From the NCBI GenBank assembly GCA_963971425.1, contig OZ020521.1, forward strand, positions 2,296,501 through 2,360,500: 64,000 nucleotides of DNA, written 5' to 3'. The position numbers and the translations under genes are program-made. The notes beneath the pieces are model-generated. The model made no database searches, was not told the origin of the DNA, and saw only the letters and a list, made by a program, of their open reading frames with translations. Below, piece after piece: positions 8,401 to 40,283 of the stretch. How positions within the stretch are numbered: the stretch's first letter is position 1; the number at the start of each line of letters is the position of its first letter. Origin of the DNA: Bryoerythrophyllum caledonicum. Taxonomy: Eukaryota > Streptophyta > Bryopsida > Pottiales > Pottiaceae.

Positions 8401-9592
8401 GTTTTCCTTGGGCCAATGGGTGTTTTAAGGCCCATGTAAGATGCACATGGGCTAATTTCATTCACCTTAGGGGTCTAGAGGATAGGTAGGCATCTTCTTC
8501 CTCCTTCGTGTCGGATTTTTGAGAGGGAAAGAAGTTAGTGTGCGTTTGGAGTAAAGTGTGTGTAGGTGAAAAAAGCCGTGAGTTTAATCAGCCATAACTC
8601 TGGTTGTAAAACATATTTTTAAATGAAATTTTGAGGGTTTCCTCCTCTTTAAGATGCGCTTCTATATTTTTTTTTTGCTTGATTTAGAGTTGTAAACAAA
8701 AAGTTACAAGCCTGTGAGTGTATGAGGGTCTGCTGCTGTTGCAGTTTGTTGAGACAGTATCCCTCCGGAATGCACCCAATCGTCACTAAGCACTTTCCAA
8801 AGTAACCGCTCCGATTTCGTTTCCACAGAGACCTAATGTTATTTTCCAAATACTCCGGATTACTAAACTTATCATAGCAATTTGTTTACGAGTTAGCTAT
8901 CATCTTTACTTACGTAAGGTAGATCCGGATCCTTCCAAAGCCGGATGTTATACAGCCGTGTCCGGAATATAATTTCCGGAACGCCAAAGGGTAGTTTGAT
9001 TTATCTTTGTTCCTCCTCAGAGAGTCTCCTGGAATTTTTAAACGAGTGGCTGGAGTCCACTGATCCTGTTTTGTGTAAGTAGCTGGATTTCCTACTGCCC
9101 TCTGACTTTAAGTGGCTGGGCACCCACTATCCGGAACTTATAGTGACCGAACACCACTCTCCCTATTCTGCTAACTGGTGATTTGATTGTTGATGCCAGA
9201 CGTAGACTCTCACGACATCCGGAAGGCCTTCCGGATGCGGTCACACAGAGACAAGTCCGGACTACAACAACATTCCGGTGGGTACGGTTGCAATTCTCCG
9301 GAACAGAGGCTCACCATTCACTATGGGTATTCCGTCTAGATGTTGGTATCAGGCTTTTTCCTATCTAAGGGGAGAACTCCTGCATGGACTAGAATCCAGT
9401 TTAACACGGATTCTTCCGTGGACTAGAGATTACCAAGAACACCTTTGCAGTTCATCTCTTCTCCTCCTGGCTACTTCCGGATCCTGGAGACTACTAGAAC
9501 ACCTCTGCAATAGCTCTCTCCAGCTCTCCCAGGCGATCTCCTAACACCGACCTAGATAGTTTTCCCCCTGCGACAAAACAACTGAGTTATAC
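5498..9592. other. AT-rich intergenic DNA, TCCGG-rich at its right end
   Basis: Only short open frames without recognisable domains (for example 7389-7658 and 7766-8038). The right part, about 8760-9490, changes character. It is densely populated with TCCGG/CCGGA words (such as ATCCGGAAGG and CTTCCGGATCC). This resembles the sequence right of 28200 on the other side of the giant element, and suggests that both flanks were once one continuous stretch. Confidence 0.5.
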
Positions 9593-9622
9593 TACTAACA
9601 CCATATTCATTAAAATGAGACA
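9593..9622. repeat. Left TIR of giant element with TACT duplication
   Basis: TACT at 9593-9596 is followed by the 26-bp terminal inverted repeat at 9597-9622. The match to the right end is perfect over 26 bp and breaks immediately beyond it. The next 150 bp hold several TGAGACT/AGTCTCA words. Confidence 0.88.
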
Positions 9623-10497
9623 TTTCAGAGTCTCAATTTATCATGGTCTCTTTTTATAGTCAATTTATAATTTCATTAATTTGAGACTATGTATTAAATT
9701 GAGACTCAATCTCGATTGAAAATGCTAAATAATCTAGCCATATCATGGATTGTTGAATTCATCTTGTATGAAATTGAATATCATATTTAATTGTGTGTGT
9801 AAAGGTAATAGATTATAAAAAATGTACCTAGATATGGAGCCTATTATCTAAGTAAAACTAATACATCCAAAAAAAATCATTGCGAGAATAAAATTACGAT
9901 GGAAAATAGAAGCGGCAATAAATTTGATAACCCCTCTAAGTAGATGAATCCAAAATTGGACTTATTTAAAATTATAACACATATACACTCATTTAAATTC
10001 CACCTTGAATGCATACCTTTTCATTTGAAAAAGAATTAATTACCAATTTCAAGAGATTATACTATTTCCAAACAACAAGGTCGTTGAAATACCTAGTAGC
10101 ATTGAAAAGTTAGCATGTATTGTAGCAATCCATTCAATAATTGCTATCTATAGAAAGTATCGATGCATCAAGGATAAATGTACAATTATTGACACTCACA
10201 ATGTGGACCGCCATTTATAGATCAATGATGTAACAAAATTCCCGCCTCTCTTGTATAATATTGAAAGCAATACAATACATTACTACATGTAACTACAAAC
10301 ACTAATCTAACTCCATCTACAAATATGCTATGCGCACATTCAAAGTCTACAATTCCATCCTATAGATACAAGTTCACTACATACTTAATAGGATACCCAA
10401 TACGGATGAACAAAAAATAAAAAAAGAACATGCACCCCCCCTATTTTATATTGGTAAAATAACTCCAGTCCCCAAAAACCACAAACTCCTTTGAAAT
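9623..10497. other. Left subterminal region / 3' UTR of the DUF7869 gene
   Basis: AT-rich and non-coding. It holds the 3' flank of the leftward gene. No palindromes of the internal type are present here. Repeated GAGAC words lie near 9618, 9629, 9681 and 9703. Confidence 0.6.
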
Positions 10498-13311
10498 CTA
10501 TAATTCAGCTAAAGATGCCTTGATTATGTCCACTTGTGATTTAGGAATTTTTAATCTAGAGGAGCTTGTGTTTCCACGCAACCTAGGCTTCCAAGCCGTT
10601 AAAATACAATCTGTATACACCCAGATTGGTTCAGATTCAGTCTCTTCAACCCAATTATTCCCATGATTAGAATCCCACCCTTGGTACGTTTCCAAGTCCA
10701 CATGACGCTGGGATGCAGGTTTGAAGTATTGCACTTTAATCTCATGAGAATGTTCACGATCCGGATGTGGATTAGTCAATGCCAAGGCAATCCAAAATGG
10801 GCGCAAATCTCCATCAGCTGAACGCACCGCAAGTACATAGCCCTCGTACACATCTCTACCAACCCGAAACGATGGAGGGGGACAATGACGTCGTTGTCCA
10901 ATGAATGGAGGGTCCTCTGCATATTCCTCCCTCAACGACCCATCAATCTCATATTCATCCACCATGGATGGAGCATATCTAGATAGTGGCCAAAATCCCT
11001 CTCGTAGGAGAGCCGATTCTTCCAAAGGCACCTCGAGAGAAGCCTTAACACCTCTCCAATAGTACATAATATGCTCGTTCTTCCTCCTATATTCACCCGA
11101 GAGATCCTCGTTAGCCATAGATTCCCAAAGACTTAGAAACCCAGAGATACCCTTCAGGACCTCATCATAATTCTCATGACGTCGCGGAATGAGAGGAATC
11201 GGTTGTCCACGAGGCAAAATTGGCCTACCATCTTCCGCCACTTTCCACAGCTGGATTCCTCCATCCTCCTCAGGCAACCAATCCCTATCTGTACAAAGAA
11301 TTTTGTACTGCATCTTTGGCAATCCATCAGAGCCCTTGTAAAACTTGAATTGTTGGCCCTTAGTGTGACATGTAAGGGCCTCTTTGCCAATGCACAAATA
11401 TCCTTCTAAAAAGCCCTTGAAATCGGGCACCTCTTCAATGAGGTGTGGAATAACTGGCACTTTCTCAGCATCCATGAATGATTTCATCAAGAGTGGAATC
11501 GTTGGATAGCTATTTGATTTGAGTTTGGAACTCCATCTCCCAAACATTGCGTCAATATCCTCGTGAGTATGACCAACAAGTAAGAAGTTGACATACACTT
11601 CACGGAAAATACCCATATGGACAAGAAGGGAAAAAAAAGCGAACACAAATCTATTTTTATTGTCCCCTGTGGCATTATCTAACTGCATTTGGAGAATTGG
11701 TGGTAACTGTTTCGCAGGAATAGGTTCAACTGGTGGAGCAGCAAGGGATCCAAGACACACGTTAGCATCCGCAAGCACAGCCTCAGAGAGAGGAGAAGCT
11801 CTTCCACTCGTAAATAATTCACGAGAAGAATACACCGGTGGACTCTCTAAGTCCCGAAGTAACTTTGCAATGGATCCAATAGTGTGGTTCGAGTCTGTGG
11901 GAAAGATGTCAAGACTATAATGGGCATAACGAACATCTCCATGTCCATGAGCAATCATTCCAGTTACGGCCACAGGCAGCTTCATGAAGGACTCCGTCGC
12001 TTTATTCTTGTGAGAAAAATGAGGTGATGCGGTTTTGCTATGATCCATTTTATCATGAATGATGCACACAACCTCGTCAGGTTTTTCTTCCGAGTTCTTC
12101 CAATTCCCATAATATAAAATGCGATGAGTCTGTTGAGAGGCTTGATGTAACTGCAATTTGACTTCCCACATTTTGTATGAGGAGGACCCCCATGTACAAG
12201 CCTTCTTTAATTGCTTGAGTTGGTCGCATCTTCCGCAGCGGGCAAAGTTGTCACCAGGCTTCTTCGTAGAGTATTGTTCAAACTCAGAGCTTCGAATTCG
12301 ACTAAGACCAGACAAAGATATTGGTTTGAGGCCAAATCTTGAATTCACCTCATTCACTTTGGGCAACACTCCACTCCATTGAAAAGAGGCAGGAAGGTGT
12401 TTGGAGACGACCTTCTCCCCAGTGCCAAGTGTAGTTGTCTTATTAGGACTGTGATCGGCAGCATCATCAAGTATATCATGCAGAGTAGCAATTGCCTGTA
12501 GAGTATGAGTCCGAGGCTTCTTTGAACCAGTATTGCCGTGTGCCCCTGCCCGAATCCCATCCTTTGCCTCTCGTTTGTACCGGTAGAATGTGGCTCGACT
12601 AACCCCCATGATAGTACACCATGCATTTTGGCATACATCAATTCCATCAAGCGTCACCACATGGTTGCCATTGGAATCCATGTGGATCTGCCTGTGCACA
12701 TCAAGCCAAACATGTTTCTGAAAGAAAACACCTCCAATGTCACGGTAAACTTGGGAGCGAAGCACAGAAATTGAACACCGTGGAAATCGTTGAGTACAAT
12801 TTCTTGGACAACAGACGGTGCTTGCAACAGAGTTGATTGATTGTGAAGTAAGAAGTACTTCCTTCTTTGGTCGAGAAGGTCCCTCTACCCTGTGACGAGT
12901 GGTTTCGTATTGTCGAACGCCTACTCTTGGTCCGCGACGAAATACCTTAAGAGCTGCATTGAAAATGCTAGTTTGTTCTTGGTCATACAAACTCACATTA
13001 CAAAGAAAGACTTGTCGAGTTGGCCATGCTCGGAGGGCAAATATCCAATTCAATGGAATTTCATTCTCGTCTAAGCATTCAGCGATTAGAATAGCAACAT
13101 GATCATCTCCAAGTGGTCGACCACCAGTTTCAGGAACAAATCCAGAATCAACACTCTGGCAAAGTCCAACTGCAACATCGGCACCAGATGTGTTTCGAAG
13201 GATAACGCGCTTTGAGAACCACGATGAGCAAGGAATGCCCTCACATGCAGCAACACCTGGAGGTAACGTAGGTGGAACTCGAACTACACCATCATATGAG
13301 CATTCTTCCAT
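10498..13311 (-). CDS. DUF7869-family DDE-like transposase candidate
   Basis: One uninterrupted frame of about 937 codons. I prefer the ATG at 13311 because it directly follows a TTGAAG splice-acceptor-like end. N-terminal third: a Cys cluster (CCPRNC, about 169-174) and a GVSRATFYRYKRE helix-turn-helix-like stretch (about 238-250). Then a CGRC zinc-ligand pair (361-364) and the core: IIHDKMDHSK (419-428), QLDNATGDNKNRFVF (545-559) and VNFLLVGHTHEDIDAMF (576-592). The GHTHEDID motif is the signature of DUF7869 proteins, which are widespread in plants and animals. The spaced acidic residues D422/D425, D547 and E586/D587/D589 fit an RNase H-like DDE fold. The C-terminal 250 residues are not assigned. 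It is the only intact nuclease-like gene in the element and hence the best transposase candidate. The catalytic role is inference. Confidence 0.8.
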   Translation of the reverse strand: MEECSYDGVVRVPPTLPPGVAACEGIPCSSWFSKRVILRNTSGADVAVGLCQSVDSGFVPETGGRPLGDDHVAILIAECLDENEIPLNWIFALRAWPTRQVFLCNVSLYDQEQTSIFNAALKVFRRGPRVGVRQYETTRHRVEGPSRPKKEVLLTSQSINSVASTVCCPRNCTQRFPRCSISVLRSQVYRDIGGVFFQKHVWLDVHRQIHMDSNGNHVVTLDGIDVCQNAWCTIMGVSRATFYRYKREAKDGIRAGAHGNTGSKKPRTHTLQAIATLHDILDDAADHSPNKTTTLGTGEKVVSKHLPASFQWSGVLPKVNEVNSRFGLKPISLSGLSRIRSSEFEQYSTKKPGDNFARCGRCDQLKQLKKACTWGSSSYKMWEVKLQLHQASQQTHRILYYGNWKNSEEKPDEVVCIIHDKMDHSKTASPHFSHKNKATESFMKLPVAVTGMIAHGHGDVRYAHYSLDIFPTDSNHTIGSIAKLLRDLESPPVYSSRELFTSGRASPLSEAVLADANVCLGSLAAPPVEPIPAKQLPPILQMQLDNATGDNKNRFVFAFFSLLVHMGIFREVYVNFLLVGHTHEDIDAMFGRWSSKLKSNSYPTIPLLMKSFMDAEKVPVIPHLIEEVPDFKGFLEGYLCIGKEALTCHTKGQQFKFYKGSDGLPKMQYKILCTDRDWLPEEDGGIQLWKVAEDGRPILPRGQPIPLIPRRHENYDEVLKGISGFLSLWESMANEDLSGEYRRKNEHIMYYWRGVKASLEVPLEESALLREGFWPLSRYAPSMVDEYEIDGSLREEYAEDPPFIGQRRHCPPPSFRVGRDVYEGYVLAVRSADGDLRPFWIALALTNPHPDREHSHEIKVQYFKPASQRHVDLETYQGWDSNHGNNWVEETESEPIWVYTDCILTAWKPRLRGNTSSSRLKIPKSQVDIIKASLAEL

Positions 13312-14444
13312 CTTCAAGATAACACAAGAAAAAGGACAGAGGTTTAGTTATCAAGAGATATTGGCAAATATGTAAATGACGGCTCCAATCAGAGGAGAGA
13401 GATACAAATAAGAAATGCTTATCCTCAACACGAGGATAACTTCAGATATTGAGTATTTCAACATTGGATTAGGGAGTTGTACAATAATTCAACAGTCAGT
13501 TATGACAACACATTGTTGATTAAACCCGGAGTGAACACACCAAATGTACAGAATATTTCAAACGAAGATCAGCATTCAGAAATTCATTTATCAAAATTCA
13601 TATTTGTAAAATTATCTCCATCAATTTGAAATGGCTAGAAACCAATCTTCTTCTTTGATGGAACAGACAGCACAATACCTCAGTGAGTTATCCTCGACCC
13701 GAGGATAGACCTACGAAAGAAATCTGAAGCACATAAGAGAATGTATGACATTGGCATTCACCACCTCAAAGTTCAAAGAATACATGCATCTCAGATGACA
13801 TTAAACTCGGAGTCAGTTATCCTCGACTCGAGAATAACCATCATAAAGTAAGTGATCCAGATATTGTATATCATACTTTTGATATCCTCGACTCGAGAAT
13901 GACAGACATGTTGGATATTACACCCGTCTAGTGCAAATCAAGACTTGACATCAATTCTTGATTCAGCTGATGAATTCAGGTTATACTTAATGTTGTTTCG
14001 TCGCATTCCAGCGAAACTACATGCGTTATCCTCGAGTCGAGGATAATTCTTTTTTCAACTTGCATCCCGTTTACCTTACAGTACTTTACAAGATTCAATA
14101 GTTTTATTCTCGAGTCAAGGATAAACCTCATATAATGTCCCGTTAGTGATGGATTTGATTCGATTATGTGAATTCAGATTATCCTCGACCCGAGGATAAT
14201 AGTGCTACAGTGATTCCGTAATATGCGGAGTGTCACAGATAGAGATTTAGTTTAGAGACAAACAAGAACCGCGAAAGTGGTCAATATCACTTAATAACGT
14301 GCAATGGGGAGACTTGTACTCTTGCACAGAAAGCAGAGTAGAAAACATTGAAATGACCTGTGCGACACAGGCAAATAGGAAATGAATATGATTTCAACCA
14401 ACGAGCAAGAAATACAACCACATAAGAAATACAGACTCACTTAC
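13312..14444 (-). other. Predicted 5' leader intron of the DUF7869 gene with seven palindromes
   Basis: On the minus strand a strong donor, GTAAGTGAG, begins at 14444 and an acceptor-like end directly precedes the ATG at 13311. Within this 1.1-kb interval are seven copies of the element's palindrome, at about 13418, 13687, 13816, 13884, 14025, 14104 and 14179. The exon-intron structure is predicted from splice consensus only. Confidence 0.55.
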
Positions 14445-14659
14445 ACTCCTGCCCTAAAAAACTATCCAAAACATTCATGTCCCAAAAAACGACCTGGAAC
14501 AATAAAAACCAGTTCAGTATCTTACTGAGCAAAGGCAAGAGCTGAAGCACAGAAGTGGAAGCGGAGGCGAGGAAGAGAGAGCTTCAGAGAGGGAAGAGTT
14601 CGAAATGAGTATTTCCAGGGGAAAGTTAGAATGTCGTGATGGACTTCGGTGCACAAAAA

Positions 14660-14725
14660 ACGGAGGAGGGCGGGAAACTTGAAAGACTTTTTCCAACGGC
14701 GGCATTTTTGGGCGGGAAAACAATG
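14660..14725 (-). promoter_or_regulatory. Two E2F-type sites upstream of the DUF7869 gene
   Basis: The exact E2F consensus TTTCCCGCC occurs twice on the minus strand, at 14677-14669 and 14719-14711, 42 bp apart. In plants this sequence binds E2F/DP factors and drives S-phase genes. The sites lie about 230-275 bp upstream of the predicted leader-intron donor, where the promoter should be. Regulation itself is inferred. Confidence 0.6.
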
Positions 14726-15219
14726 TATTTTTGGCACATCTTTTAAGGTGACCTTTTTAAGTTGTCGAGTCACTTCAATTTAGAAATGCGACCAACCCGA
14801 ATAAGACAAAATGAGATTCGTTTTGACAAAATCGGATTTTCTAATGAATAAAAAACTGAAAGTCATATTTGGTTTCATATGTAAAATAAAAATAAAAATA
14901 AACAATAATCTGCTACATTAGTTTTAGGGTAAAAAGGGTTTTTTTTTTCAATAAGCCTTGTAAAATGAGAATCATTTTCAAGAATATAACTCTTGGAATA
15001 TTAAAAGTTTTAACATATATAATTTGTGTTGATATTGTTTTCAAATAAGAATTGAAGATAATTTAATTTGGTTTTTAAAAAAAGTTGTATATTCATTTAG
15101 GCTTTCTTCGTTTCATTGATAAAAAATCAAAATTTTAATCAACTTTAGATTATATTTAAGTAAGTTGATAAATGTTTTTTGTCACACACAAGAAGAAGAA
15201 GAACTCTAGTTCAAAAGAC

Positions 15220-15272
15220 GGCGTGAATAAAGTGTTTATTTGATCCACCGCTAAGTCCATGTCCACCGGACT
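15220..15272 (-). repeat. Dispersed LINE-tail-like motif, copy A
   Basis: On the minus strand it contains GGACATGGACTTA followed by GGTGGATCAAATAAACAC and TTTATTCACGCCG. The same order of words occurs at 40284-40389 (minus) and 55261-55372 (plus), where the identity is higher. It is probably the conserved 3' end of a retroposon family inserted into the giant element. Confidence 0.5.
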
Positions 15273-15374
15273 TATATCACACACATATTTGTTCTTCAAA
15301 GTTGACGAAGAAGGGGAAAAATGATTAATTTTGTTCACAATCTTTAAATATAAAACGAACTTTCTTTGAGCTAA

Positions 15375-18300
15375 TTCATGCAATTTGATGACTTTCTAAT
15401 TAAAGGTTATCCTTGATTTGAGGATAATTTTTTTGACTATAATTAGTAGTCAATTGCTATGTATTGAAAACTAGAAAATGGTATAATTTTTTTTTTTTAA
15501 ATCACTAAATTGTATAGTGTAATATGATGTGAATTTGAAAACTACTCATGGATCATTGCACTGTCAATAATTCTTTATGTCTTTTTCTCGAGTGGCTTAA
15601 GTCTTAATGTGTTTCTTAGTATTGCTTATATAAAACTATAGTGAATCAAATACATGTAGTTTTCTTTAAGAACGACTAAAATAAAATTTCATTGGTTTGG
15701 TATGTTCGTATTCTGTATCATAAGTTTTAAGAAATTTTTAGTTGACAATTGCATTTTTAAATTTGAAAAGCAAGTTCTGGACCACTATGAAAAATCAAAT
15801 GCAATGTCAAGTTCAAGAAAAACATTTGTCGTATAGGCACATTTTTTTAAAAATGTATAAGTGAAGTATATTAAAAAAAAATTATCAAATCATACATGAG
15901 GTTTTTAAGCAGGTCCATAAATTATCAAGTCATACATGAGGTTTTTAAGTAGAAACCCTAAACCCTAAAACCCTAAAATTCTAGAAACCCTAAATCCTGA
16001 AACCCTAGAAACCCTAAAAATCCTTAAAAACTCTGTAAATCCTAAAAACCTAAAAACTCTAAAACTATAAAATCCTAAACCCTAAACCTAAGATTTCGCC
16101 GTAACATGCGTGTTGTTGCTGGTGAACACCATGTCGATTTGGGCAACCGTACATTTCTAGAGTGGCTTTTAAGGACAGGCTGAAGAAGATGAAAGATGCC
16201 ATAATCAGGTGTCCACGGGCATAGAAACTTCAAGTATTATACTTGTTTCCTTGGTTACTCATTACACTATAATCAACAGTTTAGAATTGATCTTGGTATG
16301 CAATTTCGAGGAACTTTTATTGGGGTTAAGTAATATTGAAGTATTCTGATCACGTTAAGTGGTTCTACAAAGGTAGATAAGCAAGGAGATAGTTCACATT
16401 ATAACTGACGTGAAGTAAACTATTGAAATTCTTTGCAGTCTCCGGTTCGAATCCTAGAACGATAATGGTCCGCAATGGCAAGATGAGTTTGATTTGTACT
16501 TTTGTAGATTTTCATAGTCACCCATGATTAAAATGGACCCATTTTTTAGCAAGTTTATTACAAACTTATCAATGTTTTAATCCAAAAATTTGAACAATTT
16601 CCATGTAGCATTCACATTATTCACATGGCAAATAATTAATGTAATGTACTAGCATATTTCTTATATATAACTTAAAAACTAGCCCCTTCATATATACTAA
16701 ACCCTTAACCCTAAACCTAAGGGTGCTCTTTGCCATCTCCGAATTCGAATCTAGTTTTACTTTTTCAAACATATTTCCAATCCAAATACAATTTAACATT
16801 AACCCCTAAACGTCCTTGGGGGGTCGAAACGCTAAAATGCAGTCAAAAATCCCTCAAAATTAAATTCCATGTAGAGCTCAATGAAAGAAAAATATTCAAA
16901 AAGTAACCATAAGATCCTCTTCAAACATAGCCAAATAATAAGTGAGCCAATTCTTGTGTACTTTGAACATGATTTAGGCCTCCATCCACTCCAAAAAAGC
17001 TACGTTTGGGGGCTAAAATTAGTTGGGCAGACCCTAGCAGCTCTTGTTGAGACCCCAACAGCTATTGCTGGGGGCCCCAACGATTGTTGTTGGGGTTAAG
17101 TATAAGATATAGAATAAATCATTAACAGTTAAAATGCTTTGAGGCTGATGAATTATGTTCAAAAAATATTGGATGAATCTCCTTTTAATCAATTTCAACT
17201 CTAAACTTGTAAGTGTTGTAATTCTAGCTCTTAAACATTTCTCACGTTGCATTTATTTGTAGTAAACAAATAAATCATAGAATAGAACTTACTTAATTGT
17301 TATGAAAATGTGATTTATATAAAAATTAAATATAGAAGGAAAAGAAATCTTAATGCATATTCAAAAACAAGATAAGATAATTCAGATTTCAATTGTGGAT
17401 ATAGGCTCTACTTCTGCAAAAGTTCCACGGAAATAGGCAACATGACACTAAATTTTCCACAGATATTGGGTACTCTAGAGCCTAATTTCCACGGTTAATC
17501 ATTAGGTTTCTACAAAAGCAGGGCTAGAAATTTCCGACAATTCATCGCTCACGTCCCACCGCTCATTGAGCATTTGTCACCGCTCACAACCTAGCATTCT
17601 TGTGAAGTAAATGAAAGTCATCAAAGATCAAATGCTAAATGCTTCATCAATTTCAAACAATGGAGAAACTATAAAATATTAACAAGTTTGAGTGAAATAA
17701 CAATTTTGAAGAGAATATATGAAAAGTATCTAGAAGTCTTTTTACTAAATTTATAATTTTTTAACTTTCCATTCATTAAAGCAATAAAAGATACCATATT
17801 CATGTCAAAGAGGCCTAAAATAGGAAAAAAAAGAGGAAATATAAACCTCTTCTAAAGTATATTACGGAAACAGATTTAACCTTCATTAAAAAGATAAGAC
17901 TTAAATAAATACTCATAAATTTAAAATATGATGTGAATTTGAAAAGTATTCATGGATCATGGTGTTTGATGTCTTTTTTATCTAGAGGCTTAAGTCTTAT
18001 TGTGTTTCTTAGGATTGCTTATATAAAACTACAGTAAATCAAATACATGTAGTTTTTTTTAAGAACGACTAAAATAAAATTTCATTGGTTTGGTATGTTT
18101 GAGCAAAATCATGCAATTTGATGACTTTCTAATTAGAGGTTATCCTTGATTCGAGGATAAACTTTCCATTATTAACTAGAAGTCAATTGCAATGTATTGG
18201 AAAATTAGAAAAAGGTATAAAATTGATATAACCACTAAATTGTATAGTGTAATATGATGTATTTGAAAAGTATTCATGGATCATGGTGTTTGTAATTCTT

Positions 18301-18460
18301 TATGTATTTTTTATCTAGTGACTTAAGTCTTATTGTGTTTCTTAGGATTGCTTATATAAAACTATAGTAAATCAAATACATGTAGTTTTTTTTTAGAACG
18401 ACTAAAACAAAATTTCATTGGTTTGGTATGTTTGTATTGTGTATCATAAGTTGTAAGAAA
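15375..18460. repeat. Threefold internal repeat (15375-15760, 17930-18105, 18106-18460)
   Basis: The blocks share long stretches, for example GCAATTTGATGACTTTCTAA, TTGTATAGTGTAATATGATG, TATATAAAACTATAGT and ATTTCATTGGTTTGGTATG. The first and third blocks each begin next to a diverged palindrome; the second is a partial copy running directly into the third. Function unknown. Confidence 0.7.
15949..16092. repeat. Degenerate telomere-like CCCTAAA tract
   Basis: A run of CCCTAAA and variants (AACCCTAAAACCC, CCCTAGAAACCC, CCTAAAAACC) over about 140 bp. A short second tract lies at 16697-16720. It is the plant-type telomere repeat, interstitial and mutated. Confidence 0.7.
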
Positions 18461-19103
18461 TTGTAAATGGACAATTGCAACTTTAAACTTGAAATGCAAT
18501 ATGTGGACCACTTTGAAAAATTATTACAAACTTACAATTTACGGCATGAAATTAACACGTATCGGAACAAAAAAGCCACATAAATGTAGTTTTATATAGA
18601 TCCACTCAAAGATTCTTAATTTGATGAACAATGACTCTAATAAATGTTTACAATGTTACCTTTAAAAAAATATTTAGATTTGAAATTAACAATACAATAG
18701 TAATGAAAAATTAATATTATTAACGATGATTTTAAAAATTAAAAGATTCTAAATACGTTTATACCAAGTAAAATTTTTATGTACTTCCCAAAGAAACTAA
18801 TTTAGAATGTATTTTTATCATGCAAGAGTATGCCAAAGTTGGTAGTTTTCAAATCATTCAAAGTACAATTAAATTGACGGATGAAAACGTCCCATATTCA
18901 TTCCAATTCACGAACATTCATTAACCGAAAATTAAATTGAAGCATCACGTCATTTCGATATAGTTTCTAAATTCTAAATAATTGGACATTCATGTACCGC
19001 TTAGCTTTAAAGTTAGGTTAGGTTTGGTCTCGGAAGGAGGGGAAAAGATGAAGAGCCGCCAAACCCTTCACTTTTTCAAGAGTGAATAAGGGCGTGACAC
19101 CTC

Positions 19104-19130
19104 CCTCTCTCTCTCTCTTTCTCTTTTTTT

Positions 19131-19191
<61 letters not shown>
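19104..19191. repeat. (CT)n microsatellite
   Basis: An almost pure CT run of about 50 bp preceded by CTCTCTTTCTC and a poly-T. It is followed to about 19480 by GTGTGAG-type words. It sits just upstream of the presumed 5' leader of the rightward gene; CT-rich tracts are common at plant transcription starts. Confidence 0.8.
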
Positions 19192-19195
<4 letters not shown>

Positions 19196-20607
19196 TGCTC
19201 TCATTTCCAGGACATGCTTTTTCTCCCTTCTCTCCCTCTCTCTTTGCTCGCTTCGCTCGCTTTGTCTGTTTGATAGCGTGAGCGTGAGTGTGTTCGTGAA
19301 GCTATGAGTGTCTGAGGTGTGTCTAAGAGTGTGTGAGCGTGTGTGTGAGTGTGTGTGAGGTGTGCGTGAGTGTATGTGAGGTGTGCGTGAGTGTGTGTGA
19401 TTCTGTGTGGTGTGTGAGAGCGTGTCTGTGAGGTCTATGTTATTGTTTGTGTGAGGTTTGTTTGTGTGGTGTGTGTGTGGCTGTCAACGCTTAGGGTTTC
19501 ATGAGTATTCGTATTTGAGGTCTGTGAGCTGTGAAGTATTTTGTGCGGTGTTTCGTGAGTGTCAGCGATTGGGGTTTCAGTTCTGTGAGGAGTGTTTGTT
19601 ATTGTCAGCACTTAGGGTTTGAGGTGTGTGAGGTGTGTTTGTGATTTTCAGCGCTTAGCGTTTGAAATTTCTGCATTAAGTTTCACTGAAGCGAGGGATT
19701 TGGTAGTGATTTGCAAAGTGTTTCCACAGTTTAGGTTTTGGAGATTGGAAGTTTTGGATTTAGTTTCACGCAAGCTAGGGTTTTGCTTGTGCACGACACC
19801 TGCAATCAGATTCAGAGCTTACAATTGCAATATTTGCACACACTCCAAGTAAGTTTATGATAACTTTCACAATTCTGCACTCTGCGTTTCAAGCTGCATC
19901 TGATTTTCTGTCTAAAACATTGTAAACGTGCCTGAGTAGAGAACTGTCCGACACCATCGTTTGAAAGTTTGTAATGCTAATTTGTTTGTATGTATGTTTG
20001 TTTGTCTGCAATTTTATTGCAATGAACTGTAGTTTGTAAAAAAACAGCCAATACTGGAAGCCGTTTATTCTCGAACCGAGCATAAACTTGTTGCCATGGT
20101 TCATTGGTAGTTTCTGGTCCATTATGTGGTTGAATTTCGACCAATTTATCATCGACTCGAGAATAAATGCAAGAGATAACCATGACAAAATGTATAGTAT
20201 CCTCGAGACGAGGATAAATTGGTGAATATTCAATGATAAATTGAACCAGAAATCATGCATAATTGTACTCGGTCACTAATTTTCCTGTGAAATATACTTG
20301 CCCGTCAAATTTTCATACATGGCTCCAAGAATATTTCCATTCTGGTCCCACGTTTATCCTCGAGTCGAGGATAAATATCTTAAAAATCAAAATACAATGA
20401 ACGCCCCTTTATAAATGTCTTTACGACTCGTAAATAAAGAACTCGGGAATCCATTGCTTCAGCCAAGTTACGCTAGATGTTATACTCGATCGAGAATACC
20501 AGGACTCACAATCCAATGTAACTTGCGAAGAATGAGAGTTTCTATCATCGACTCGAGGATAAATCAGTATGTGATTACTAATACCCATGTGGTGTGGCAT
20601 TCTGCAG
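19192..20607 (+). other. 5' leader exon and intron of the rightward gene, with six palindromes
   Basis: A donor-like CCAA/GTAAGTTTATG lies at 19848/19849 and an acceptor TTCTGCAG at 20600-20607 abuts the ATG at 20608. This predicts a 759-bp leader intron. Six palindrome copies lie inside it, at about 20064, 20145, 20198, 20353, 20481 and 20543. The arrangement mirrors the leader intron of the leftward gene. Predicted from consensus only. Confidence 0.5.
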
Positions 20608-23600
20608 ATGGCCAATGACCCAATGGATATTGTCGACGACTACGATTATTCAGCGGAGAGGTATTTCATTGAGATGTTTAGAAATCCACTCGATCCATCC
20701 CCCTTCATCGACGACGTGGTAGAAAACTATGGCACACTGTGGGAGTTTCAAGATACAGTGCAAACATGGTCGTTCTCCAAATCCGGGAAGTTTGTGCAGA
20801 TAACGATCAAGGTCAATGACAGTACCCCTTACGTGCTTTTGAACCGCAGGGAGAGAGTGACCTTTGTCGAGCAGCAACATAACGAGTATATTGTGCTCGG
20901 AGTTCAAGCATTCGATGATGCAGGAGCTGATCTTCCCCACTGCCATTCCATTGTTGTCAAAGTGGGTTTGCATTACGGGCAATTCGACTTTTCGGAGTTG
21001 CTCGAATCTGTGGTTCGAAACGGGCAAGGATCGCTAAAAGAGGCGTTCGAGAAGTACTTGCCCTGGACTAACGATGATGTTGTCAAGGTCAATAGGCGAT
21101 TAGTTCGAATCCATCAACTCCTTACAGCATTTGAAGCTCGGTCGGTTCCTGTCGAAGGCATTGCTCGTCGTCGTGCACGCGCTCCTGGTGCCGGTGCAAC
21201 CAATCCATCTGGCTCATCTGCACCTCAAACTTCAAGCCGTGCTCCGCCCAGAAGATCCTCGACAACAACTCCAACGGCTGGAGAGCCCTCCTCGAAAAAA
21301 CGGAAGTCAACGACTGGTGGAAGCTCGACCTCAACCATTACGCGGGCAGCAACTCCGAATAAATCCCGAAACGATCCGCAGGTGGATTTTGAGGCGGTCA
21401 CCGAATCGCAGCGGGTGTTTTGGGAAGAGTGCAAGGGTTGCTTCCCGTTCGACAGTTCAACATATGGGGTTGGAATCGAGCAATGCGTCGTTGCGAAAGC
21501 CCAATACGTCATTCGGGGAATGGAGGAGGGCATCGTGTCAAGCACCATGGACTTCCTCGTGCAACTTGGCGAAATTGGACAACGCCAGAAGATCTGTGTT
21601 TGCCCAGTCGATGACGATGGTGAGCCTCTTCAGCGGCAGCCGACGTCATGGGACAATATTAAAAACGGCAAGTTCATGCTTATCAATGGACAGCATAGCG
21701 TGGAAGCCTCTAGGCGTCTGCAAAACGTCGAAAAATGCAGTGAGAATCGAAGAAATGTTTTGCAGCGTTGGGACGCGTATGTAGTTTGGTCAACAGATCC
21801 TCTGAAGTTGCAGAGGATTTCCAAATTTTACAACGACACCAACTACCTGGACCACGCTCAACCGACATGGGGGAACCAGATCTTGAGTTGCCGAAGAATT
21901 TGGCTCAACTCGGGCCGACCGAGTTACCAGCAAGGAGAGGGCTCAACTCGTGGCAATAGTGCCATGTTTGACCAGGAGAAATACTCGGTAAGATTTCAGT
22001 CAGAATGTATCCTCGACTCGAGGATAATTCATGATTCACTACAACTACCATTATATCCCTCAAGCATGTCTTCATTATTTTCCTAGAATGTGTTTAGATA
22101 TTTGACATGCCTGGGTTTCCTGAACTGCAGTTATTCTCCAAGTTGATTGTCAACCGCTTCCAAAACATCGACCCCACGAAGGAAGGGAAACAGGTGAACA
22201 AGTCATCAGATATCACGAATGAGATCAAGGTGATCACATTGCCTGATGACGTTTTCAAGCTCTGGGAAGCTTTTCTCGACAAGCACACAAAAGGCGAGAT
22301 TATCAACCCAGACACGATGGTGATGTATAATGAGGCAAAAAATTTCAGAGCCTCTCCCATTCATCGTGAATTTTTCAAGAGGTTGGGTCACCTCTCCGAC
22401 AAAGACTTACGGGATCTGTTCACGTACCTGGTGGACAGTGAAGGCCCGAATGGGTATCCGAAAGTCACGCTCCGGCGGACAGGTGTTGTTCACGGGTCCT
22501 GCTATCACTACGAGGAGTGGGCAGATCGCCGGAAGAGGAAGCGCATTGTCCTTCAGGAATTGATCGCAATAGATCCTTCCTTGAAGTTTTTGATGCCAGA
22601 CGGGTCCACAAACGACGAGGTGTGGAAGGTGTGGAAGCAAGAACATTGCGTGTCTTCTGCGACGTACAATATGCTCCTTGTCTGGCCCGACAAGGAGTTC
22701 TTCTCCATGAGGCTCACAAATGCCGAGAAGCTAAAGCGAGCTTCTCAGTTGGTGGAGAAGTTTCCGAACGTGTTTCCATTCTTTCGGAAGTTTTTGTACG
22801 TCAAGAGCCACATCGACCCCGTTGTTGGACCAGCCAAGCTCCGCGATTTTGATGGAGAGAAAATGGAGTTCGGCGAATACTTTGACCCCCCTACGGAAGA
22901 CAGAGAGTGGTCGCTTGGTCTCCTTGACCTTCGACAGGTCCCTAGGTGGTCTTCCAAGGAGGACTCATCAGATGAGCCATACTTCTCGGAGTTTTTGAAG
23001 ACCTTAAAGACGCAGAGAAGCAAACCCACCCTGAACTCTTCGGCTGTTTGGGTGTGGATAACCTCTTCTGAGCAGCGAGCGGTGCAAGCTGAGAAGTATG
23101 CGGAGAGGAGGATGTCGAAGTATGTGTGCCTTCCGTCGAGGTACATGCCATCCGCATTCGAGCGACTGAACATGGGGACATCGAGGTCGAAGTGTACTGA
23201 GGTGTACTTGCTGTTCCTTATTCGGGACGACCATCCCGATTCTTCGGCGCTACTGAAGAAGGTTGACCTGAATTACTCTGCCGCGGATACTCCATACTAC
23301 ACCGAAAGAAACAAGTATTTGGAGGCATGCTTCGCTGTTCACGGCTACGAGTTGCGGATGGAGTTCTACCTTGAGCTCCTCTCTGCATTCAGCAAGCCCG
23401 GGAGCAGGGTTTTCGGTGTCTTTTGTGGCTCCAAGCTGTTGCTGGCGAGTAAGGTAATTGATCTCCTTCATTTCTTAGTTTATCCTCGGGTCGAGAATAA
23501 ACCCGATATATCACTCAATCACATTATTCCGTTTTCAGGTTCTCTGAATTATGCCACATCATGTTATGCTTAGCAAATGTTTATCCTCGTATCGAGAATA

Positions 23601-25086
23601 CCTCGTATGCTTGCATCTCCATTTCTAGATTTCGTTGGTATTTAGTTTAACTCACTATTCTTGTCATTCGCAGATGTTTGGAACATCATTTTACGGTCTC
23701 GTGGACAAAGACTATCGCAATTTATACAAGCACAATGCGAAAAAATTGGAGAAGTATGACATAAACGACTTCCTCCATAAGGATTGTGCGTATGTTAGTC
23801 GTCCACTGCCGCCGGATTCCGATGATCCCGAATCCGCACCAGCTCCCATCACTGATGATCGAAGGCCCTCCAGGACAGCCACCGCTCGCAGAAGCTCTGC
23901 ACAGAGGCCTTCGGAGACTGCTGCTGCAACGGCCTCATCCTCTGGTTTCCGTCAGGATTCAGTCCGCATTGACAACGAACCTGATGAGGATGCCGACCCT
24001 CCTCTCTCGCGCAGATCTCCTCTTCCGCCAAATCCCCCGGAATCCAACGACAATGATACTCTGGAATTTGATACGTATGGGAGTAACATTGGTGTAAATC
24101 TCTTGTCCCTGGGACCCGACTCTGTTGGGCCATCATCACATAATGCTGATGATGCAAGCGATTTACCGGTGCCATCATCCTCTGGAGTCGACATTACGGT
24201 GCTCCCCAATGAGGTCCCTTCCACTGTTATTCAAGGAGACGCCCCTGTTGATTTAGCACCTTCATCTGAAGAGGCGCCACCAGCTGAAGTAGTCATGATG
24301 CAGGATATTTCCATCATTCTGCTTTCGGACAGTGACGACGAAGGACCAAGACCTCCTACGGCCGGCCCATCGAACCTTCAAACTCTTGAAGGTAAATGGC
24401 CTTTAAAACCGACTGTGATAGAGGCTTCCGACTTCTTTGTCAACGCTGCTGGAGAAGCCCCACCCCCTGAAAAGGTTGTAAAGTACGAATCTAGTGGTGA
24501 TTTTTATCAGCATCTGGCTATCAAACGCCTCATGGAGATGAAGGAGAAGTAGGATATGGTGGACCGCTTGGAAGAGTCAAAGCGCAGGCAGGCAGAGATG
24601 GAGGCAGCTCTTGAGATGCAGAGGTTGGAATCTGCCTTGGAGAAGGCGCGGATCGAGGCAACTATAAGGGCTGAGCTTCAACTTCAAATGAAGTCAGACC
24701 TTGCCCAGATGTACGTGAGGAGCCCTTTGAATTCGGGGGCAACATCATCTGGTCCTCCTCCCTCTGAGGTGCCTGTGAGCACGAGTTATCCTCGTGTCGA
24801 AGATAACTTAGGTTCAGGGCTCTCTACTCCCCTGCATCCTTCGGCTGGACTATCTCAGAGGGACCCGAATTTTCCTGTTCGCAAAGCTTCCTCTCTTGAT
24901 GGGCAACAGTCTCTTCCTCAAGAAGCACCTACGTTCGCTCCCTCTGAGGAGCACTCTACAAGAAGAAGCCCTCCTTTTGAGTATCCTCGACCCGAGGATA
25001 CGCCGGGTGTCTGCCTTCACCAGAACCCGCTTCCTCCCCCGCTCCGATTCAACAGTCTGGGGAGTGCGGCGCAGAGGCCCGCGTAA
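20608..25086 (+). CDS. Multi-exon element gene with DGQHR-like motif and coiled-coil tail
   Basis: Exon 1 is 20608-21987, exon 2 22131-23453 and exon 3 from 23674. All junctions are GT-AG and in phase 0. Exon 1 encodes an acidic N-terminus, a Ser/Pro/Arg-rich linker (about residues 195-260) and a region with FMLINGQHSVEASRRL (about 350-365), similar to the GQHR core of DGQHR/ParB-like domains. Exon 2 encodes an unrecognised 441-residue domain. Exon 3 is Pro/Ser-rich and ends in an Arg/Glu-rich coiled coil. A TAG at 24550-24552 cuts the coiled coil, but the frame continues open to 25086 with the same heptad character. The present copy is therefore probably truncated by one nonsense change. Two palindromes lie inside this last coding part and translate as YPRVED and YPRPED. 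No function is claimed beyond a possible DNA-binding partner of the DUF7869 protein. Confidence 0.65.
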
Positions 25087-25428
25087 TCGACTTTCCTGTG
25101 GTGGCCATGGATGTCAGTCCGGTGGGGGAGGATCGAGTGGATTACAAGCCGTCACCTGAAGGACCTCGAAACGGAGCATCTGATTCTGACCAGGTTGGCT
25201 AGCTCTTTTTTTTCATTTTTTTAGGCTACTTTATGAGCTGCAGCCCTGTATTTTTTGAATTACTACTCATTGTCTCCAGTAGGTCTCATATGGGTTTGTT
25301 GGACTGCAGGCATCGGATCCATATGAGTTTTAATGTACTTTAGGCGGAGTGTACATACTTGTAAAAGCATTTGTATATAAATTTATGGAATTGTTTAACA
25401 ATTCAATTTTCTTCAATTGTTTTCTCAT
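25087..25428 (+). other. Intergenic spacer before the HAD gene
   Basis: AT-rich and short. It holds the presumed 3' UTR of the preceding gene and the start region of the next. A TATATAAATTTATGG stretch at 25373-25387 could be a TATA box about 45 bp upstream of the next ATG. Confidence 0.4.
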
Positions 25429-26405
25429 ATGAGAATGGATGATATTGTTCATCGACCTCTTGCATTGAAGCCTCGGATTGGGAATGATTTACAGAAGTCG
25501 CTATGTGGGGGAGAATTGATGCAATCTGTGACGCTTCCTTTGCATATTGCTCAATGTGCATTTCATCAGGTAATTTCCATTGACTTTAGTGTGTGTTTGT
25601 CCTGTCCCAGGACTGTTTGCGGAGGAGTTTGTCCGTTGTCCCCAACCGGCGGCCAGACAAGTGGCTTAATATTGTTCTGGATATTAATGGCATCCTTTGC
25701 GAGACAGAGCATGCCCCTGGGTTGTCTAGAGACTCAGTGAGTCGGGCCGCGTATTCTTGCACCGGTCCTGCGTACATAGGTCCAAAAGCTGTATATACTC
25801 GCCCTGGAGTTCGTGCATTCCTGGCGGACATCCGAAACGTAACGAACTCTATTGTCGTCTGGAGCTCCATGAAGAAGTCTACTGTTGTTGAAATTGCAAA
25901 GTATCTTTTTTCGGACATGCCTTCTCCAGCTCTGGTTCTTGGTCAGGAGAGCTGTGATAGAATCGAAACCTTGCCCAATAAGTTCTTGATGGATCCGAAT
26001 AATTCGAACAAGACGATCTTTTTGAAAACTCTGTCATCAACTTTATTTAGGCAACGACTTGAGTCGATGGTCCTAGATTCGGACAACACCCTTCTGATCG
26101 ACGACAGTCCGGAGAAGAGCGTTTGTAATCATATGGGAAATGCCATATTTCTTCGTCCGTGGAGACATGCGGCCTGTGACGACCAGATCCTTACTCAGGA
26201 ACTTGTACCTTGGCTGCGACGTCTGGTTTCTGAATGCCCTCTTGGGCAGTTACATGATTATGTTAATATCAATCGTATAGGGGTTGAGCCGTTGGCGCCT
26301 AATAGTCCTTTCATGAAATACATTGTAGATGGGATGGAGCTCTCAAACAAGAACGTTGGCTATGTCTATGAAATTCCACATGGTTCTTCTTCGTCGGCTT
26401 TATAG
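25429..26405 (+). CDS. FCP1/NIF-type HAD phosphatase-like protein
   Basis: Exon 1 is 25429-25569 and exon 2 25611-26405, joined in phase 0 across a 41-bp GT-AG intron (about 311 residues). Motif I is VLDINGILCETE: the nucleophile Asp is kept, but the second acid of the usual DxDx(T/V) is Asn. The segment VYTRPGVRAFLADI and VVWSSMKKSTV correspond to the FCP1-homology motif II region (WS/T). DSDNTLLIDDSPEK is the conserved motif III/IV block. FCP1/SCP proteins dephosphorylate RNA polymerase II C-terminal repeats or other proteins; the DxN variant may be non-catalytic or altered. It lies between two element genes in the same direction and belongs to the giant transposon. The 41-bp intron is unusually short for a plant. 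Confidence 0.75.
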
Positions 26406-26759
26406 TTCCATCGGCTCCTTTTTTGTAATATAGTAGGAATTTAGTATCGATATTGTAAATACTCTGTTTCATTTTGAATATATAAATATTTTACAACTTC
26501 AACAAGTTTATTTACTTTGTCTGGTGTTTTTTTTGTTATCTATGTGTTGTTATTCATCTGTCAGTTGGTTTTAGGATTCATCTTTGTTTTCAATATTATT
26601 GTTTTTGCTCTGGTCGAGCGTGTTGTGTTTACTATGGATCCTAGGTATATTGTATTCCTTTGGGCTTTCATATTTATCTTCGGGTCGAGCATGCGTTGGA
26701 TTGCTGTGACTATTGTTATGTTGACTCATCGCTTCTTTTGTCTCGTGTGTCTTCTGCAG

Positions 26760-27575
26760 GTTGTGGAGGCTACCATTATCCCTTCATGTAGGAGTGATCG
26801 TAGTAAACCGCCCTCCAATTGTGGCTCGTTTTCTGAGTACTCTGGGTCGCTTCTTGGAGGTTTTTCCCAATCCCACTATTCAAAGCCATTTCTTATGTGC
26901 ACTGCAACCGATGCTGCCTCTGCTATCATGGACTTTTCTACACAGAAGGTCGATGATGGTGTTGTTGATAGCCCTCCTGAGCGGAGGGCTGGAATTCCTT
27001 GTGTCGCATCTCCTTCGCCACTCAAGCGAATGTGTGCATCTATAGAGCCTATTGGCGATTGCACTCCTAAACGGCAGCTCTATCTTAATGGTGCAATTGA
27101 TGTAAACGAGGTGAAGGAGTCTGAGCCTATCTCTTCCAACTTGATTATTCCGCCTTCGTTTATTCGTGTCCAGCCTTCCCTTCCTACCCTTGCTAAGTGG
27201 AGGCGGTTTCCTAGTTCTGAAGGTATTGTTGGAGTTAGTAATCCTCCATCCCGTTCAATAGGTTTGCATACGGAATCTCTCGATGTTAAGCCTAGATCTT
27301 TGGGATCCGCATCATCACATATTCGTCGGAAGTCACTATGCTTGAGTGGAGGTGGTGGTTCTGGGGCTGGTAGTGGTCAATGCCATCAATCACGTCATTC
27401 ACCTGTGCAAAAATCCGTGAATTATTCGGAAGTAGATGATTACTATAAACCGTATTCTTGGAGGAAGGAAATTATGATTGGGTATGCGAAAGTGAAAGCG
27501 CAAGAGGCTTTACTTCTGCAGACACGAGGAGGTGGTTCAACCATTCCTTCTAGTGAGGGGGGAACTCCTAAGTAG
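26760..27575 (+). CDS. Unrecognised Ser/Pro-rich protein of the giant element
   Basis: An open frame continues from a CTTCTGCAG acceptor at 26759 to a TAG at 27573-27575 (about 271 residues). It is rich in Ser and Pro, with a Gly run near SGGGGSGAGSG. The C-terminus is basic and tyrosine-rich (DDYYKPYSWRKE). The upstream open frame back to 26517 translates into a very hydrophobic Phe/Val/Ile stretch that looks like intron or UTR, so the start is unresolved. No family recognised. It is the last gene before the right terminus. Confidence 0.5.
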   Translation, partial: VVEATIIPSCRSDRSKPPSNCGSFSEYSGSLLGGFSQSHYSKPFLMCTATDAASAIMDFSTQKVDDGVVDSPPERRAGIPCVASPSPLKRMCASIEPIGDCTPKRQLYLNGAIDVNEVKESEPISSNLIIPPSFIRVQPSLPTLAKWRRFPSSEGIVGVSNPPSRSIGLHTESLDVKPRSLGSASSHIRRKSLCLSGGGGSGAGSGQCHQSRHSPVQKSVNYSEVDDYYKPYSWRKEIMIGYAKVKAQEALLLQTRGGGSTIPSSEGGTPK

Positions 27576-27949
27576 GAACAGTTTTATATGCTTTAGAAGT
27601 CCTTTCTTGTTTTGTTGTAGACACGGTAGTATAGATCCTAGACTACTATAAATAGAAATTGAATTGTGATTACCTATGTTGGTAAACAATGTCATGAAAA
27701 TGAAGTTTTAGTATGATTATTTGCATTATGCTCACTTGTTTTCGACTATGGATGGAATTTTATTCTCTATGCCGATCTATTAATAGAATTTCTGTGTAAT
27801 GCAATTTTGATGGGTCGCAATGATCATGTTGTTTACTGTTGGATATGGGATGTTTCTTGTATGCTGCATGATGTATGCCTTCGTTTGCAACAACTTTTCA
27901 CGATATTTGTGTCCGAAGTAATAGGCTTTTAGTCTCAAATCTCACGATT
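27576..27949. other. Right subterminal region of the giant element
   Basis: AT-rich 3' flank of the last gene with no open frame of note. GTGAGATTTGAGACT (read inward from the right end) echoes the GAGAC words at the left end. Confidence 0.5.
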
Positions 27950-27979
27950 TGTCTCATTTTAATGAATATGGTGTTTACT
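27950..27979. repeat. Right TIR of giant element with TACT duplication
   Basis: 27950-27975 is the exact inverse of 9597-9622. The four bases outside it, 27976-27979, are TACT, identical to 9593-9596. Confidence 0.88.
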
Positions 27980-28408
27980 CGGGAAGAATCACTCATATAA
28001 CCATACCCACAAGAATGGATCCGTCACTCACAAGTTCCACACGTCACAACAAGACACAAGGTAGCAAGTCTAGTGCAAATAGGTGACGTATATTTCCAAG
28101 TGAGAAGAACAAGATGAAAAGGTTTTTCCCAAAACCTCTCTACTAAGTACTAACTAAGTTCCTTCTGAATTCAGCTTTCTTCCTAGCTATCCGCTAGAGC
28201 TTATCTAAAAGATCCGAGAAATCCGGAAAAGTTCAAGATCAGATCTCAGATCCTAAAATCTCGGAACAGTTCCGTCTCCGGAATTCCTACTCTAACTACA
28301 AAACTGGCCGTTAACTCCGTCAGCAGCCGAGTGCACTTGGGGCCCCATCGTTAATCGCTGTTGATCTGGAATCTAAAACCCTAAGAGAAATACAAAATCC
28401 TAACTAAC

Positions 28409-39513: not shown

Positions 39514-39604
39514 TGACCAAAGACCTCAAGGTAATACATAATTACCAATTAGTATTTACTACCCTTCACATACCATACTATTCCCTAGAAAAATACATCT
39601 ATGT

Positions 39605-40260
39605 TTGGTATATGTTTGGTACATAGATGTATATATCAAATACCAGTACAATATACATAGTAGTCCTCATATACTTCAAAACTATATACAAATATTGTAC
39701 GATTTGTTATACAAATACAAAATATACACTACATTACGAGTATGCCTACATAATACCCAACTACTACACCGACTACCAAACATGTATAAAATACTACGCC
39801 CTTCATGCAAAATACAAATACTATACAAAATACTATCCCACCTACTACATCCACTATACCAAATACGAATACCAAACAATACATTCAAAAATTATACAAA
39901 TACACACACACAAACATACAAACATAAACACAACTCCAGAACATATACCCACATAAATACACCAAAAACCACATATATAAATACACCAAGAACCACACAC
40001 ATAAATACACAAACAAAGAGGACAAAAAATGATTAAAAAACACACAAAAAAATACATAATAAAACATATACACACAAATACTTATACATAAATACACGTA
40101 CATATCCCTCTATACACAAAACATAAAAAAACAAACAAATACAAACAAAAAGTTGCACCACAATATAAACAAAAAACAACACAAGAATACAAACACATAC
40201 ATAAAAAACACAAAAATACAAACACAAATAAAAACAAAAAAAAACGCAGAAGAAGAATAA
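39605..40260. repeat. AC-rich low-complexity spacer
   Basis: First TACAAATAC-type words, then from about 39890 ACACAAAC/ACATAAAT repeats on the plus strand. Open frames in both directions here are products of composition. A similar composition returns at 41090-41430 and 41540-41690. Confidence 0.7.
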
Positions 40261-40283
40261 CGCCCGCCTTCGAATGAAGGCCG

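Follow-up and report, generated by a model that had tools for sequence, protein, structure and literature searches.

A giant transposon, most likely of the Sola superfamily, with four genes and a conserved palindrome array in the moss Bryoerythrophyllum caledonicum

We analyzed a window of 64,000 nucleotides from the genome of the moss Bryoerythrophyllum caledonicum (contig OZ020521.1, positions 2,296,501 to 2,360,500) and found in it a complete giant transposon of 18,379 bp (9597-27975 of the window). The element has exact terminal inverted repeats (TIRs) and an exact target-site duplication, its insertion site occurs uninterrupted elsewhere in the genome, and it belongs to a numerous family sharing the gene order A, then B-C-D on the other strand, and a conserved array of about 20 palindromic sites. 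According to its structural features, it is most likely an autonomous-type giant cut-and-paste TIR transposon of the Sola superfamily. We propose that gene A would encode the transposase and that the product of gene B would act on the palindromes against silencing of the element; to this explanation as a whole we give a probability of about one half.

Ends, copies and insertion site

The 26-bp sequence AACACCATATTCATTAAAATGAGACA opens the element on the forward strand and closes it on the reverse strand with 0 mismatches, and no match to it was found in 100 shuffled windows. A preliminary description, made from the letters of this DNA, had reported perfect 26-bp inverted ends with TACT on both sides and had placed the element at 9593..27979. 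Ends and duplication were confirmed (Table 1); the interval does hold the whole element, with both duplications counted in.

We then searched the genome (437 Mb, 894 contigs). At up to 3 mismatches, the end sequence was found 403 times in forward and 399 times in reverse orientation, and the reversed sequence, used as a control, gave 0 matches. These 802 ends correspond to roughly 400 copies. Duplications were read at ten facing end pairs on contig C1, taken from the first 100 places listed; an eleventh pair, 33 kb apart, was left out of this check. An exact 4-bp direct repeat flanks 8/10 pairs, all eight repeats being different; one pair agrees in 3/4 bases and one does not match. A full copy at 19.67 Mb of contig C9 (the C9:19.67-Mb copy) is flanked by GGCT and GGCA, equal in 3 of 4 bases. 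With the window included, the 12 end pairs comprise 9 exact duplications, 2 with 3 of 4 bases and 1 unmatched. The C9:19.67-Mb copy had prompted a 3-bp alternative with an extra T on the left, which was dropped because the base before the left end varies among copies and 8/10 further pairs agree in 4 bp. This copy is 18.1 kb long; four of the C1 pairs span 18.1-18.4 kb and the other six 9.3-23.4 kb. Another copy, on C7, has no TIR in the 19.9 kb retrieved and aligns only partly to the window, and is thus a disrupted copy.

The insertion target (flanks 9447-9596 and 27980-28129) is a multicopy repeat. When these flanks were joined over a single TACT and used as a query, the junction was crossed in 40/40 scored places (the best 40 of 1108 candidates) with 89-95% identity. 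One of these empty sites, read as letters, is ...gttacactactctggaagaatcactcat, with TACT once. The preliminary description had suggested looking for further genomic copies and for an empty site. Both were found: copies with the same ends and gene order, and an uninterrupted site without exactly the 9597-27975 interval plus one TACT.

The genes are laid out with A on the minus strand and B-C-D on the plus strand, diverging from a noncoding spacer, as had been described. Counting A and B copies among the matches listed, a B copy lies head-to-head within 30 kb of 38/49 scored A copies, and on the same strand in 0. Likewise, C lies on the same strand within 10 kb of 71/92 scored B copies, mostly at 5.0-5.2 kb, and on the opposite strand in 0. 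The A-B spacer falls mostly into length classes of about 7, 8.5 and 10.1 kb. A sister copy (C9:538-558 kb; 19.9 kb retrieved, with the right end beyond) carries A, B, C and D in the same order, with 87, 65, 58 and about 45% identity to the window.

The genes look unlike a standard transposase set and B is broken in the window copy, as would suit a chance or composite assembly in which nested insertions and captured host genes came to lie between unrelated ends. The recurring gene order, the sister copy with all four genes and the empty site all oppose such an assembly, which we consider hardly credible. The ends, copy number, duplications, gene order and empty site agree with the earlier claim of a whole element, and strongly support a complete copy of a mobile element that is common in this moss genome.

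The palindrome array

Nineteen sites with at most 3 mismatches from TTATCCTCGA-N-TCGAGGATAA are present in the window, all of them in 13419-25001, and 0 in the rest of it. The 21-bp site has a near-perfect 19-bp dyad symmetry that includes TCGA. The regions upstream of A and of B contain seven and five sites, B intron 1 has one, and B intron 2, the last B exon and the spacer have two each. When up to 5 mismatches are allowed, the window and the C9:19.67-Mb copy have 20 sites each, in matching places. The 23 sites of the sister copy are spread over the region upstream of A (7), the region upstream of B (8), intron 1 (2), intron 2 (3), the last exon (2) and the gap between C and D (1). A degenerate palindrome in the C-D gap of the window matches the last of these; the two spacer palindromes have no counterpart in the sister copy. 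By blastn (E 1e-10), the two copies align only over 9856-13317, that is gene A and its left side, and the palindromes persist in the sister subfamily where the surrounding DNA no longer aligns.

In the spacer itself, 15365-18521 contains three copies of a 214-nt block, and adjoining related stretches carry a palindrome. Telomere-like CCCTAAA runs lie at about 15955-16090, and a long CT microsatellite further right, at about 19104-19190.

The seven sites upstream of A were found in 29/30 gene-A loci. Over 29 loci (locus L034 and the sister copy left out), 195/4263 letters in palindrome columns differ from the majority (4.6%), compared with 4015/21750 in the rest of the 900 bp (18.5%), a fourfold reduction in variation. 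At CpG positions the reduction is eightfold, with 22/696 differing inside palindromes (3.2%) and 198/754 outside (26%). Since CpG normally changes faster than any other dinucleotide in methylated plant DNA, its low variation here argues for strong constraint on the palindromes. Sites at up to 4 mismatches also occur in the retrieved parts of four more diverged B lineages (exon 1 64-68% identical), numbering 5, 8, 10 and 10, and the intron-1 palindrome is common to these four, the window and the sister copy.

The inverted repeats lie in introns and 5' regions, where they could act as RNA hairpins in transcripts. We compared U-G wobbles with C-A mismatches over distinct sites. For the pair 8/14 upstream of A, wobbles prevail (9 against 4), as hairpins would have it; for the pair 5/17, C-A mismatches prevail in the B part (10 against 3) and the two are about equal upstream of A (5 C-A and 4 U-G). 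Since the wobble bias is not consistent, the symmetry looks like a property of the DNA, and hairpins are very improbable. Covariation, suspected from a symmetric change at the outer base pair, was rejected, as many sites are not symmetric there. Dyad symmetry at the DNA level makes a dimeric protein the natural reader of the site.

This reader could be the transposase, with the palindromes as internal A sites for synapsis or excision of a long element: A has a helix-turn-helix (HTH)-like stretch (Pfam HTH_29, E 0.0094, below its cut-off) and there are 19 sites for it to bind. The motif is absent from the TIRs, and the leftmost 3.8 kb and rightmost 2.9 kb of the element have no site with at most 3 mismatches; weaker matches there are at 10157 (6 mismatches) and 26674 (5). 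With no good site near the ends, the transposase is an unlikely reader, and we regard internal transposase sites as distinctly improbable.

Genome-wide, 3,460 sites were found at up to 2 mismatches; the reversed control gave 0, and about 0.7 are expected from uniform bases. Of the 92 exact sites listed on C1, 48 are no more than 20 kb from an A or B copy or a perfect TIR among the matches listed, whereas 6.3 would be expected at random. The remaining 44/92 are not near such a copy or end among the matches listed, so some palindromes may lie in other elements. Among eight loci seen over 3 kb and at one end only (L001-L008), L005 and L006 have one palindrome each. Sites away from listed copies, together with the clustering at both promoters and in introns, would suit sites of a host transcription factor (for example a MYB-related protein that reads TTATCC/GGATAA), acquired by the element for expression in certain tissues. 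A near-perfect 19-bp dyad including TCGA is not needed for a host site, however, and the occurrence of sites within the last B exon and the enrichment around family copies also speak against it. We hold this origin to be rather unlikely.

Table 1. Features of the element in window coordinates.
Feature	Position	Strand	Basis or remark
Left target-site duplication TACT	9593..9596	.	exact
Left 26-bp TIR	9597..9622	+	exact
Gene A, single exon, 937 aa, DUF7869	10498..13311	-	Pfam PF25273, E 1.8e-44
Seven palindromes upstream of gene A	13419..14199		starts 13419, 13688, 13817, 13882, 14026, 14104, 14179
Two palindromes in AT-rich spacer	15407-15427, 18140-18160		each within duplicated spacer block
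Five palindromes upstream of gene B start codon	20065..20562		starts 20065, 20146, 20197, 20354, 20542
Gene B exon 1, 460 aa, motif INGQHSVEA	20608..21987	+	open frame
Gene B intron 1, one palindrome (22007-22027)	21988..22130	+	GT..AG borders
Gene B exon 2, 441 aa	22131..23453	+	GT..AG borders; 64% identity in sister copy
Gene B intron 2, two palindromes (23480-23500, 23581-23601)	23454..23673	+	GT..AG borders
Gene B exon 3, acidic, proline-rich, helical C-terminus	23674..25202 (right limit inferred)	+	
Palindromes inside gene B exon 3	24786-24806, 24981-25001		
Gene C, FCP1/NIF-phosphatase-like, DxN instead of DxD	25605..26405	+	Pfam NIF PF03031, E 6.4e-11
Gene D open frame, 273 aa	26754..27575	+	3' splice site AG 26758-26759 inferred
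Right 26-bp TIR	27950..27975	-	exact
Right target-site duplication TACT	27976..27979	.	exact

Genes A to D

DUF7869, which the preliminary description had recognized in gene A, is the only Pfam match of this protein above cut-off; no Mutator-type transposase domain matched at that level. D420, D545 and D587 are among the residues invariant in 28 sequences. In the predicted model, D420 follows a strand (414-419), D545 follows a second strand (539-544) and D587 lies in a helix (582-599), a placement that would match the arrangement of an RNase H-type DDD core. A is thus a probable DDD transposase (D420, D545, D587), as judged from conservation and the model; the VIA-align list for this model covers other domains, and searches of solved structures with the A, B and C proteins gave nothing usable. 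Four genes had been described as accessory-type. All four are present; since one is most likely the transposase, three rather than four would be accessory. No internal stop was found in 20/49 scored A copies. Relatives with an organism name come from the mosses Ceratodon purpureus and Physcomitrium patens, and none in viral collections was confirmed among 52 pattern matches. We found no paper on DUF7869 in the open-licence literature.

Gene B had been called DGQHR-like. The short motif is present, as [DN]GQHS, in 7/7 aligned sequences, namely window B and six foreign relatives (31-42% identical) found at E <= 0.001 among the candidates scored. This is a likeness to ParB/DGQHR (DndB-like) proteins, from which window B differs in having no profile match: exon 1 matched neither the DGQHR profile TIGR03187 nor Pfam at E up to 10, within the HMMER filters. 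Because exon 3 of the window copy contains a TAG at 24550-24552 and a frame change near 25040, this copy is probably not fully autonomous any longer. In the C9:19.67-Mb copy that codon is not a stop, but exon 1 contains one; the stop of the sister copy is at a different, nearby codon of exon 3. Exon 1 is stop-free in 30/92 scored genomic copies.

The six foreign relatives, available as protein only, were also examined for read-through of intron 1. In 4/6, a peptide that the palindrome could encode with <=1 mismatch was found in the tail, the tails starting at anchors picked by hand; in the controls, such peptides were seen in none of the six protein bodies and in no more than 0.6% of shuffled tails. 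A variant in which both arms are changed (C to G, G to C) suits three of the four cases better. This variant, TTATCGTCGNNNCGACGATAA, occurs exactly once in the genome (C7:4766806, locus L065, position 1501), with a second, degenerate copy 122 bp away (position 1623). None of genes A-D was found by tblastn in the 3 kb of L065, which is possibly a remnant of another lineage. A widened palindrome pattern had no exact match in a viral contig collection.

Gene C scores 42.6 bits against PF03031 (cut-off 21.8), as FCP1/SCP (NIF) C-terminal domain phosphatases would. The catalytic motif of the FCP1/NIF family is DxDx(T/V). The genome has 144 scored copies of C. In an alignment of C and its relatives, the second catalytic Asp is Asn in 92/93 readable rows, with a gap there in 18/111 rows; motifs like WSS and DDSP are retained in most rows. 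The FCP1-type phosphatase of the preliminary description therefore stands as a family match, but with DxN rather than DxD. With this Asn in nearly all readable rows, C is probably not a normal phosphatase, and its relatives are possibly a class of pseudo-phosphatases carried by transposons.

Gene D has no match above cut-off to known families and 142 matches in the genome. In a group about 81-86% identical, many copies contain a TAG within the match together with a 289-aa open frame, as though a shorter D were in use there.

Between the window and the sister copy, the ratio of nonsynonymous to synonymous substitution (dN/dS) is 0.127 for A and 0.20 for C, and there is purifying selection on both genes between subfamilies. 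In exons 1-2 of B, synonymous sites are saturated (dN 0.25-0.26). For 13 A sequences without stops, 75 pairs gave a median dN/dS of 0.136, 3/78 pairs with dS <= 0.01 being left out. These 13 (12 loci and the sister copy) come from 31 (30 loci and the sister copy); L021 and L026 were missed by the start pattern, L034 was dropped and the others have stops.

Subfamilies also look mosaic: many copies have about 93-95% identity to the window in A, about 73% in B and about 86% in C. Synonymous divergence of the window from the sister copy is 0.54 in A and 1.65 in C. The transposase half may have been exchanged between lineages, or B may be evolving fast.

Known systems, proposed mechanism and surroundings

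It is in its structural features that the element fits the Sola superfamily. Sola elements have a 4-bp duplication and TIRs of 11 to 1124 bp, are mostly 2-9 kb long with some over 15 kb, and have been reported from the moss Physcomitrella patens (PMC10741241). The window element has a 26-bp TIR and a length of 18,379 bp, and the 4-bp duplication is exact in 9/12 end pairs. Ginger, with TIRs of 40-270 bp ending TG..CA (PMC10741241), does not agree with the 26-bp TIR starting AACACC.

A giant Sola element of Ectocarpus, Sola1-1_Ec32 (21.5 kb), has an accessory gene that is encoded opposite to the transposase and contains a ParB-like domain, and its authors suggest that such proteins may bind and epigenetically modify their own element (PMC12477816). 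Similarly, B, with its ParB/DGQHR-like motif, is encoded opposite the transposase candidate A. Unlike the Ectocarpus protein, B has no methyltransferase match, and genes like C and D or a palindrome array go unmentioned in the available text (PMC12477816). We found neither the A-B-C-D set nor the array in the literature on moss or giant transposons, among open-licence papers and with Repbase outside the scope. The earlier claim of a gene set not known from any named superfamily thus holds for the combination, described nowhere that we found, but the ends, duplication and length fit Sola. The accessory gene set and the cis-array are probably new for a probable Sola-type giant transposon.

The distribution of the palindromes recalls the VANDAL transposons of Arabidopsis. 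The motifs targeted by VANC lie upstream of VANA21 and within VANC21 and VANB21 introns (PMC5735166), and VANC systems cause loss of methylation through motifs in introns and upstream regions (PMC5735166, PMC10398659). In the moss element, a short element-specific motif likewise occurs in accessory-gene introns and upstream of the transposase gene; 2/19 sites are in the last B exon and the others are noncoding, as with the VANDAL/VANC motif. The systems differ in transposase, A being a DUF7869 protein and not Mutator-type, and in target-site duplication, which is 4 bp here and 8-11 bp in Mutator-like elements (PMC6446971).

In the mechanism that we propose, A, as a DDD transposase, would act at the 26-bp ends, and the palindromes would be cis-targets of a dimeric DNA-binding protein encoded by the element, with B as the best candidate. 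ParB proteins bind palindromic sites. By binding, B would mark family copies and keep their genes expressed against host silencing, like VANC; C, whose FCP1 site is altered, may serve to tether RNA polymerase II. We propose B for this role because of the VANC-like distribution of the sites and the ParB-like precedent in Ectocarpus. More specifically, this could be a second, independently evolved system of sequence-specific anti-silencing in plant transposons, in which a dimer of ParB-like B (alone or with C and D) protects the family in trans through about 20 palindromes; we advance this only tentatively.

A protein of the element could equally bind the palindromes to repress the element and limit its copy number. 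Sites at both promoters are typical of autorepressors, and the positions, recurrence and constraint of the sites fit repression as well as they fit protection. Sites in the introns and last exon of B are closer to the VANC distribution (PMC5735166) than to that of a promoter-only repressor, and we regard self-repression as unlikely.

Several observations weigh against an anti-silencing role for B and a DDD transposase in A. The palindromes are dispersed and conserved in their 21-bp dyad, whereas VANC targets are tandem repeats that diverge fast (PMC10398659). Foldseek with the A or B model gave no match at E <= 0.001, so that residue conservation and the order of strands are the grounds for an RNase H fold in A. 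For B, no Pfam or NCBIfam model, DGQHR included, was above cut-off in the window protein. A ParB-like PHROG matched in 1/7 aligned sequences, marginally (E 0.048), and six other families appeared beside it in the same search (E 0.047 to 0.63). An unbroken B is present in none of the full-length copies retrieved (window, sister and C9:19.67-Mb). The close C9:19.67-Mb copy gives higher dN/dS values when compared with the window (0.35 for A, 0.45 for C and 0.08-0.82 for segments of B), a pattern that decay after insertion would produce. The 44 exact C1 sites away from listed copies belong here too, as do the half-sites TTATCC/GGATAA, which we take to resemble plant MYB-related sites; a literature search on this gave nothing specific. 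Finally, we infer the reader protein, its binding and its effect on methylation or transcription.

The purpose of accessory genes in giant transposons is largely unknown. Here the same genes and the same 21-bp site recur across subfamilies of differing divergence, which makes the targets of accessory proteins testable in vitro. If B does bind it, the palindrome would be the first cis-target known for a ParB-like accessory protein of a giant transposon. If anti-silencing is correct, land plants would have evolved the VANC strategy twice, in elements unrelated to each other, and the moss element would provide a demethylation module that is ready-made and has one long recognition sequence. If the protein represses instead, a giant element of high copy number would have a system for limiting itself.

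The window also contains other mobile and host-type sequences. To the right of the element, the open frames 29111-29668 and 29538-30311 (minus strand) have no Pfam match at E 0.001. The region 38281-42945 is probably a non-LTR retrotransposon, with an Exo_endo_phos endonuclease frame (41698-42945) and, upstream, a 410-aa frame with no Pfam match. A stop-free frame of 345 aa at 52522-53559 (minus strand) matches Pfam HTH_Tnp_Tc3_2 and DDE_3, domains of Tc1/mariner-type transposases. The region is bordered by open frames of ordinary host-type genes, for a TrkH-type cation transporter at 626-2089 (minus strand) and a rhomboid-domain protein at 62668-63492 (plus strand).

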